A stretch of 64,000 nucleotides of DNA from positions 1,783,799 to 1,847,798 of the forward strand of contig RQJH01000003.1 of NCBI GenBank assembly GCA_014156375.1. Reading direction: 5' to 3'. Of this stretch, positions 20,378 to 21,326 are shown one piece after another (positions within the stretch are counted from its first letter, which is position 1; every line of letters begins with the position of its first letter). The notes below the pieces were generated by a model that was not told the DNA's origin, searched no databases, and saw only the letters and a program-made list of their open reading frames with translations. A program made the translations under genes and the position numbers. This DNA comes from Enterobacteriaceae bacterium 89 (GTDB lineage: Bacteria; Pseudomonadota; Gammaproteobacteria; Enterobacterales; Enterobacteriaceae).

Positions 20378-20410
20378 TGCCCGGTGGCGCTACCGCTTAC
20401 ACGGGCCTAC
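20378..20410. repeat. REP element
   Basis: GCCCGGTGGCGCTACCGCTTACACGGGCCTAC-type sequence (split by reading): an imperfect palindrome with the conserved GCCCGGTGGCG head shared by the REPs at 21251, 53632, 54223 and 57711. Confidence 0.75.
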
Positions 20411-20589
20411 AGGTTTGCGCAGGTCTGATAGTGAAGTCACGTAATAAACCACTCAAATCCGGACTGCTCGCAGCTTTTGCGAGCGTGCTCGGGGAAATGC
20501 TAAAATCCCTCAGGTTTGTACGGAAACAGAATTGTCGCCATCTGAAGTCGGGAGTAGGGTTGTTTTCGCATCTGCAAAACAGGTGCCGG

Positions 20590-20760
20590 GATTGACCTCC
20601 TGCCAACTTCACCGGCGACATAGTTTGTTATGTCGTGCGCTCTGTTACACCTCAATGGTGGGCTGAGTGAGGGCACCGCAAGGTGCGCCAGTATCCGGTG
20701 AGGCTGGTAAGGTCAACTTCTCTCAGCCCGCCACCAGGGAATTGACCTTTCCGGTGGCGG
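20590..20760 (+). ncRNA. P4/C4-type antisense RNA leader (immunity-RNA-like structure)
   Basis: A structured leader precedes the 152-residue gene. (1) Hairpin CGACATA/TATGTCG at 20616-20635. (2) A closed three-way junction: GGTGGGCTGAG (20657-20667) pairs with CTCAGCCCGCC (20722-20732), enclosing GCACC-GCAA-GGTGC (20673-20686) and CCAG/CTGG (20688-20707). (3) Unpaired parts of the junction are complementary to flanking sequence: AGGTCAA (20710-20716) to TTGACCT upstream (20592) and again downstream (20742); CCGGTGA (20695) to TCACCGG (20609). (4) CCGCCACC (20728) can instead pair with GGTGGCGG (20753). A small RNA whose one sequence is complementary to sites on both sides is the hallmark of phage P4 CI / P1 C4 immunity RNA. 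The assignment is by structure; no covariance search was run. Confidence 0.6.
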
Positions 20761-20790
20761 TGAATGAAACACTCATTGGAGAGCACCATT

Positions 20791-21249
20791 ATGACCATCA
20801 CCCTTTCCCAAACCGATCCCCTCTTCACCCTACCGCTGGCGCACAACATGGATTTCACCGAGCTGGCCGATTACTGCGAACACTTCGCAGAAGTCTTAGT
20901 GGAATGTGACAATCCAGCGCAGAAAATCGCACTCTGCGGACGACTTTCAGCCTGCCTTGCCCTGCTTGAGCCAACGCTGCTGGAACCCATTCCTGATGGG
21001 TTGAAAGCCAGCCTGACCGTCGAGGATTTGCCCGCTTCTCTTCCTGCTTTCGAGCCGGACACCGATCAGCTGGCGGAGTATTGCCAGACGCTGACGCAGC
21101 TGCTGATGGGCAGCACACTGAATCCAACCAGCGATCGTGTGCTAAGCGATTTGCTGTACGAACTCACCCGCTATTTCGCGGACACTTTGCGTGCACCGCG
21201 CTGGCTGAGCACGCCTCAGGGCGTGTTCTTATTTGATGAACTGCACTGA
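20791..21249 (+). CDS. Unrecognised 152-residue protein with an internal duplication
   Basis: I do not recognise the family. The start at 20791 has GGAGAG 7 bases upstream; an in-frame ATG at 20764 has none. It is acidic and mostly helical, with no signal peptide or membrane segment. Residues 24-66 (ELADYCEHFAEVLV...LLEP) and 93-135 (QLAEYCQTLTQLLM...TLRAP) look like two copies of one helical unit sharing (E/Q)LA(D/E)YC. The gene sits behind a P4/C4-like RNA leader and before a terminator, in the slot where E. coli has cspA/hokA. By position it may be phage- or satellite-derived, but its job is unknown. Confidence 0.72.
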   Translation: MTITLSQTDPLFTLPLAHNMDFTELADYCEHFAEVLVECDNPAQKIALCGRLSACLALLEPTLLEPIPDGLKASLTVEDLPASLPAFEPDTDQLAEYCQTLTQLLMGSTLNPTSDRVLSDLLYELTRYFADTLRAPRWLSTPQGVFLFDELH

Positions 21250-21250
21250 C

Positions 21251-21326
21251 ATGCCCGGTGGCGCTACGCTTACACGGGCCTACGGATTTGGCGTAGGTCT
21301 GATAAGGCGGAGCCGCCATCAGGCAT
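21251..21326. repeat. REP/BIME element
   Basis: GCCCGGTGGCGCTACGCTT... GGGCCTAC is followed by GTAGGTCTGATAAGGCGGAGCCGCCATCAGGC, giving two REP-type units in inverted orientation (described in parts). It lies directly past the 152-residue gene. Confidence 0.8.

Follow-up and report, generated by a model that had tools for sequence, protein, structure and literature searches.

Architecture of the locus

In the stretch of DNA analysed here, which comprises 64,000 nucleotides and is referred to as the window, a gene for a protein of 152 amino acids is preceded by a structured leader containing a C4-type antisense RNA (Table 1). The neighbours of this unit, recognised by eye without the use of a database, are presumably a yiaG-like gene and glyS. 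An initial annotation had described the outer stem of the RNA, two complementarities (AGGTCAA to TTGACCT and CCGGTGA to TCACCGG), an alternative stem and the gene, and the coordinates of all these elements proved correct. Its designation of the RNA as "P4/C4-type" holds in its second half, as the Rfam C4 model (RF01695) matches at full length with 66.9 bits compared to a cut-off of 45 (E 8e-11 in the 64 kb searched). P4 is the looser analogy, both the Rfam family and the plan of a1b1, C4 and a2b2 with ribosome site being those of P1/P7.

Table 1. Features of the window cassette, with positions counted from the first nucleotide of the window.
Feature	Sequence	Position	Strand	Remark
Promoter-like site	TTGTCG-N17-TAGGGT	20532-20560	+	Placed by eye
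5' hairpin	GCATCTG/CAGGTGC	20568-20586	+	Near presumed transcript start; begins the IsrK-like leader
a1	TTGACCT	20592-20598	+	Upstream target of C4 segment a'; from sequence and cognate complementarity
b1	TCACCGG	20609-20615	+	Upstream target of C4 loop b'; from sequence and cognate complementarity
Leader hairpin	CGACATA/TATGTCG	20616-20635	+	Occupies the T-run terminator position of many sister leaders
C4 antisense RNA		20651-20738	+	Three-way junction; from RF01695, fold and covariation
C4 loop b'	CCGGTGA	20695-20701	+	
C4 segment a'	AGGTCAA	20710-20716	+	
Alternative stem	CCGCCACC / GGTGGCGG	20728-20735 / 20753-20760	+	a2 sits in the loop
a2	TTGACCT	20742-20748	+	Downstream target of a'
b2	CTCATTGGA	20772-20781	+	b-type contact (20772-20780) with two G-U pairs; overlaps Shine-Dalgarno GGAG
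Gene for the 152-aa protein		start 20791, stop ends 21249	+	Paralogue family A1

The outer stem of C4, formed by 20657-20667 and 20722-20732, carries GG at its 5' base. The RNA alone folds with -46.1 kcal/mol (z -4.70) and the whole leader with a z of -5.39, with none of 200 shuffles being equally stable in either case, and the alternative stem is part of the whole leader's minimum-energy fold. Across 26 modules of the A1 gene family (L099 and L100, which belong to the same genus and precede other genes, were dropped) 97.4% of the cells are paired and 17 of 27 pairs are changed on both sides, a result matched by none of 500 shuffles. Hence, the stems are conserved with compensating changes, as expected for a C4-type RNA in front of this gene. 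The overlap of b2 with the Shine-Dalgarno sequence recurs in many sister copies.

Upstream of C4, 36 of 44 distinct leaders have their best promoter-like site ending 6 nt short of the 5' hairpin. The leader of the window did not fit the hairpin pattern behind this count, and its promoter-like site occupies the same position as the conserved site of its relatives. The Rfam isrK model (RF01394) scores 34.5 bits at 20568-20628, below its cut-off of 50, and exceeds this cut-off in nine of the 20 genus loci examined, all sister copies. By this kinship we assign the first half of the leader to the IsrK family, the match in the window itself lying below the cut-off. Of 26 modules of the A1 family, 18 have a T-run following the leader hairpin; the window copy has none, so that termination at this point would either be Rho-dependent or the block of the ribosome site would have to suffice. 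REP-like repeats, recognised by eye, flank the window cassette at 20379-20413 and 21255-21320, and similar repeats follow some of the sister copies.

The downstream gene and its product

The 152-aa protein has no match in Pfam, PHROG, NCBIfam or PADLOC, and neither a profile match to SymE or another toxin family nor an antirepressor domain was found. Its structure model is all-helical and of low confidence (pLDDT 58). A fold search with this model yielded no match at E <= 0.001 and a resemblance to generic helical bundles only, while a sequence search of solved structures returned nothing better than E 0.97 and 1.4. The gene looks to be under purifying selection, as judged from dN/dS ratios of 0.13-0.17 among three glyS-slot copies (dS > 1) and of 0.04-0.24 in 14 of 15 compared pairs, the remaining pair having a saturated dS; these values are rough because many dS exceed 1.

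An internal duplication of the protein had been proposed, to which the weak similarity of its two halves (hhalign 66%, E 6e-5, one comparison) lends weak support. Small proteins behind other C4 RNAs resemble the first half (hhalign 63%) more than the second (12%). Reading frames of about 55-70 codons lie downstream of C4 in other genomes (L175, L176, L177, L179 and L186), and the three of these small frames that were tested all match phrog_16030.

Paralogous cassettes in the genome

The genome from which the window is taken contains ten C4 matches, all of them above the cut-off, while 14 control genomes contain none. In addition, it encodes 12 full-length paralogues of the 152-aa protein (E 4e-11 or better) together with two weak matches, to which a profile search adds two fragments. 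A paralogue directly follows each of the ten C4 RNAs. These numbers rule out that the gene is present only once. The term "solitary" used in the initial annotation is hence appropriate with respect to phage genes, none of which was recognised by eye near the C4 RNA, but not genome-wide.

By their neighbouring proteins, the copies of this genome are seen to occupy ordinary gene slots. Besides the one at glyS, these are, as far as we recognise them by eye, metE-ysgA, fumA-fumC, a site before metG, one beside zntA, and sites near rhlE, near lsr and near cheA-motAB. No integrase was recognised by eye among the neighbours of these copies, and no tRNA gene is present in the 19-kb stretches around the 12 copies, for which reason we rejected a tRNA-island scar as the origin of the window locus.

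Pairwise DNA comparisons covering 1.5 kb to either side of the start codon delimit the repeated unit. In 14 of 21 pairs there is one matching stretch which extends from 241-341 nt before to 413-523 nt after the start codon, a few pairs showing extra short secondary matches. The match between L061 and L062 continues through the downstream flank, and the window copy shares the glyS flank, too, with the glyS-slot copy of G041. In the five other pairs the match is shorter or split, and three of these pairs include copies that have lost C4. As delimited by these borders, the unit is a discrete portable cassette of about 0.7 kb.

Both Pfam Phage_ASH matches of this genome (L011 and L013), as well as those at L027 and L028, overlap C4 RNAs. 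The two matches therefore look like a frame over C4, and "ash family" annotations may in part be such frames.

Cognate and non-cognate pairing

The a' and b' segments of 49 C4 modules from eight genomes were compared with the sequences up- and downstream of C4, both in the cognate and in other modules. These modules were taken from the 68 C4 matches of the eight genomes, with 4 of 16 included for G022, 4 of 5 for G043, 4 of 7 for G046 and 3 of 6 for G012, the remaining genomes being complete. In all four contacts, none of 5000 permutations reaches the cognate mean, a count which overstates independence since the modules are related. No other module scored higher than the cognate one in 20 of 49 cases for a' with the upstream region, in 11 for a' downstream, in 15 for b' upstream and in 17 for b' downstream. 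Among the ten modules of the genome studied here, the cognate partner is best or tied in ten, five, six and five cases, respectively. In a few modules, including L018 of the same genome, the best b' match is located away from the expected site.

When the targets are combined, the cognate set is strictly best within its genome for 43 of 45 modules from seven genomes (four of the 49 being left out, namely three of G012 and L086, which is followed by an apparent transposase gene), with the upstream targets alone giving 40 of 45 and the downstream targets alone likewise 40 of 45. Since each of the ten C4 RNAs of the present genome fits its own combined targets best, these copies appear to carry distinct RNA addresses. 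Judged from complementarity, it is the combination of a' and b' that is distinctive for each copy, while single contacts are shared between modules. Orthogonality is weaker by RNAduplex energy than by complementarity score, the cognate partner being best for eight of these ten copies overall, nine upstream and four downstream. As the energy scores favour the cognate partner in fewer cases, some cross-talk between the copies is possible.

Distribution among relatives and mobile elements

In a survey of 60 Enterobacteriaceae genomes from 59 genera, C4 was detected at E <= 0.001 in 30, of which 28 have matches above the cut-off, and the A1 protein family in 16; a C4 RNA is located just upstream of 32 of the 41 full-length proteins of this survey. 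Among 119 genomes of the order, three encode the protein, including the one analysed here, and all three are from the window's family. Within the genus, all seven genomes carry the A1 gene, with a total of 38 full-length copies of which 28 have a C4, seven a LexA-like site instead and three (L030, L096 and L097) neither.

The glyS slot is occupied in the present genome, in G041 and in G060; G063 has a broken copy there, no copy is found in the 1.5-kb stretch examined in G061, G062 and G064, and a CspA-like gene is located at this position in another genus (G001). In the protein tree, built from 53 rows, two species have their metE-slot copies placed as sisters, and the same is true of the metG-slot copies. 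The glyS copy of G041 groups with G043 copies and not with the window copy alone, and that of G022 groups with other G022 copies. Since the glyS-slot copies are not sisters, this slot may have been filled or converted repeatedly. Several genomes have their own groups of copies; the tree contains some long and uncertain deep branches.

Among 5426 E. coli genomes, 1524 match the window locus in part at the DNA level, with none of the matches reaching 80% coverage. We inspected six annotated regions, taken from E. coli and Salmonella, all of which harbour a C4 just upstream of the gene. In five of them an HTH gene comes next and overlaps with it (the single one tested is HTH_35), and integrase genes and a tRNA are nearby; the HTH gene is marked as frameshifted in L112 and L113, and the integrase of L112 is a fragment. 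The sixth region, L115, which is on a plasmid, shows neither the HTH overlap nor a nearby integrase or tRNA. An EFASI RNA (RF02957) lies just 5' of an integrase-domain gene in four islands carrying relatives (L070, L071, L113 and L114).

Seven plasmid records match the A1 protein, five of them covering at least 80%. A phage gene family as the source of the protein was considered and rejected, as there is no PHROG match, none in viral contigs and one match in the phage collection, a 1.5-kb unannotated record. The leader DNA matches nine phage records, three of which are annotated as antirepressor or Rha. The a' address of the window recurs in viral contig L190 in front of a gene that is Bro-N-like by eye. 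This recurrence, as well as the trans immunity proposed for the multi-copy C4-like RNAs of Acinetobacter baumannii (PMC5320573), would fit a borrowed superinfection immunity, in which the main targets of C4 RNAs would be incoming phages or satellites sharing their address, reached in trans, with the downstream gene being incidental. Yet the full a1b1 address of the window occurs as an exact pattern in no viral contig, and with a shortened b part in two. Moreover, C4 is conserved together with the gene that follows it and with the a2b2 site of that gene, and we consider an action mainly in trans improbable.

Relatives residing in integrase islands of E. coli and Salmonella, together with the broken glyS-slot copy of G063, the fragments in the present genome and the proximity of some copies of other genomes to tRNA genes (L106 and L110, two of 30 loci in the tRNA scan, as well as L038 and L052), could mark the cassettes as prophage or satellite remnants in decay, devoid of a present function. 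Against this stand the low, albeit rough, dN/dS values, the retention of covarying stems and contacts and the lack of tRNA around the 12 copies, as well as the presence of copies in every genome of the genus and the sister relationship of metE- and metG-slot copies in two species. We therefore disfavour decay as a very improbable explanation.

The copy beside metG

Scored against the LexA consensus, seven of 74 distinct family frames are preceded by a LexA-like site that matches at 15-18 of 20 positions and has CTG...CAG intact, the next score being 12. These seven copies are one per genome of the genus (seven of seven), each beside metG, and carry the site in place of C4. In 1.10 Mb of DNA centred on such loci 13 LexA-like sites were found, all of them belonging to the same seven copies in overlapping loci. 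The genes mrp and metG flank the copy in five of five refetched loci, in four of which a crude string test tagged the gene itself. To judge from this site, the metG-slot copy seems to have come under SOS control, its C4 apparently having been replaced.

Other genes behind C4 leaders

Three genomes, G003, G026 and G012, contain many C4 RNAs without encoding an A1 protein. The genes tested behind these C4 RNAs comprise three Bro-N, one ORF6N, one HTH_35, one SymE and one unmatched gene, and Icd-like genes follow C4 elsewhere. In G026 there are nine C4 leaders (L080-L088), several of which precede Bro-N (two tested) or genes that are Rha-like by eye, and some adjoin apparent transposase genes. 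The SymE-type toxin gene is located directly behind the C4 leader in G003 (L073:1709-2137, Pfam SymE_toxin E 2e-18); SymE-like gene starts are present at L075 and L078 as well, the Pfam test covering L073. A literature search for SymE together with a C4 antisense RNA gave no match. The leader and the first eight or so codons (MATTLTQT-like) are alike before unrelated genes at L073, L075, L078, L091, L099, L103 and L104, as if leader and gene start were exchanged as one piece.

Several genes behind other C4 leaders are thus antirepressor-like, while the A1 protein itself lacks a domain match. Inferring its role from these genes and from the SOS-type site, we regard it as most likely a small all-helical switch protein derived from integrative elements, acting as an antirepressor or a growth-modulating regulator, two options which we consider about equally open. 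Its uncontrolled expression would most likely be costly. The antirepressor role is suggested by association, given that the protein has no family match and its weak model resembles generic helical bundles only.

SOS-controlled toxins carry LexA sites. The LexA-like site in one lineage, along with the SymE-type gene behind a C4 leader in another genus, is consistent with a unit resembling a type I toxin-antitoxin system, in which the protein would be a growth-inhibiting toxin and C4 its RNA antitoxin, kept by addiction or as a stress module. Further arguments for a toxin are that Icd of P1 is described as blocking cell division (PMC8201110) and that IsrK, to whose family the first half of the leader is assigned, is described as raising a toxic protein in Gifsy-1 (PMC4825925). 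The A1 protein, however, matches no toxin family, and copies with an intact frame exist which have neither C4 nor LexA-like site (L030, L096 and L097). Since a strongly toxic protein, if expressed, would make such copies costly, they count against a toxin, which we hold to be possible though rather unlikely.

Proposed mechanism

Taken together, the locus is probably best explained as a dispersed C4-silenced cassette with a gene for a small switch protein. Most likely, a switch gene of a mobile element has become a chromosomal paralogue family which is silenced in cis by C4. The claim of the initial annotation that a phage-type RNA switch has been kept in the chromosome without a phage is partly supported. 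C4, its contacts, the paralogy, the borders of the cassette and the LexA-like sites are seen in the sequence itself, from which silencing, processing, SOS induction and the role of the protein are deduced. In the proposed scheme, the cassette of about 0.7 kb would comprise, in this order, a promoter, an IsrK-like leader with a1b1, C4, a2b2 over the ribosome site and a single small gene. Transcription of the leader would be followed by excision of C4 from the transcript, following the precedent described for P1/P7 (PMC5320573). Pairing of C4 with a1b1 of nascent transcripts would promote termination, while its pairing with a2b2 would cover the ribosome site and keep its own gene off. Since each copy of the genome has its own combination of a' and b', the copies should silence one another poorly. 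A few copies have lost their C4, that beside metG apparently having moved to SOS control.

The same set of elements could go further and constitute a sensor array of about ten mutually orthogonal C4 locks. A matching a1b1 on an incoming phage, satellite or island would then soak up one C4, free the corresponding paralogue and trigger a response, be it antirepression of resident elements or growth arrest, which the copy with the LexA box would link to DNA damage. We regard such an array as a long shot.

With cis-silencing as the preferred reading, C4, known from phage immunity, appears here as a portable lock, duplicated repeatedly, on a family of chromosomal genes; in other genera, unrelated genes follow it, including that for a SymE-type toxin. 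This allows tests of whether bacteria reuse immunity RNAs of phages as a silencing module of general use, of how the addresses of duplicated RNAs become orthogonal, and of the role of a gene equipped with an antisense lock in some copies and an SOS-like switch in others.

Comparison with known systems

SymE/SymR and other SOS-controlled type I toxin-antitoxin systems consist of a small gene held by an antisense RNA. They share with the cassettes the antisense-held small gene and, in one lineage, the LexA box, and SymE itself is located behind C4 in another genus. In contrast, the C4 of the window is part of the same transcript rather than of the opposite strand, and the protein has no toxin profile match. 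In the CI RNA of P4 with its elements seqA, seqB and seqC, one segment pairs with an upstream and a downstream copy, as in the window. The RNA of the window differs in having two such segments, one of which faces the ribosome site, and in its Rfam match, which is C4. The immunity of P4 is described as being based on termination (PMC4825925).

The C4 RNA of P1 and P7 (RF01695, with c4-a1b1 as RF03163) corresponds to that of the window in being a three-way-junction RNA above the cut-off with two antisense segments, in the location of its targets, which lie upstream of C4 and at the ribosome site of the gene behind it, and in the GG at the 5' base of its stem. Of the signs of the RNase P cut by which P1/P7 C4 becomes an RNA of about 77 nt, this GG is the one seen in the window. 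According to the available part of PMC5320573, C4 of P1/P7 is cut from a leader transcript and b' partly covers the ribosome site. The match of RF03163 in the window reaches 18.9 bits compared to a cut-off of 46.7. Unlike in P1 and P7, no phage is recognised around C4 in the window, a different gene follows it, and the chromosome harbours about ten copies with distinct addresses. In place of the icd-ant immunity operon the yiaG-like gene and glyS are found as neighbours, with no phage gene recognised by eye.

By analogy, the nearest experimental case is the IsrK-orf45-anrP locus of Gifsy-1 in Salmonella; in sister copies the first half of the leader scores above the cut-off of the IsrK model (RF01394). 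This locus is described as comprising a short leader RNA, an untranslated read-through mRNA and beneath it an antirepressor-like gene, which is the one controlled, with a processed RNA, STnc1160, downstream of IsrK (PMC4825925). The same study reports that translation is turned on in trans by the short IsrK, and that growth arrest became stronger when the downstream RNA was co-expressed (PMC4825925). Because the short RNA activates and the downstream RNA strengthens the arrest, Gifsy-1 does not simply prove the silencing model. It further differs in being located in a prophage and in that orf45 and anrP are read together; the part of PMC4825925 available describes no paralogue family.

Multi-copy C4-like RNAs in one chromosome are already known from A. 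baumannii, for which 21 similar Group 1 sequences, 15 of them of full length and with varied a', are described (PMC5320573). Many C4-type RNAs with varied a' per chromosome are thus common to both cases. A tie to a paralogous downstream gene or to cognate targets, both found here, is not described in the part of PMC5320573 available. Titles and abstract openings of the literature matches listed, among which few subscription papers are covered, contain no description of the A1 gene family. As far as these searches show, what is new compared to all of these systems is a family of paralogous cassettes with cognate addresses and, in one lineage, a LexA-like site in place of C4.
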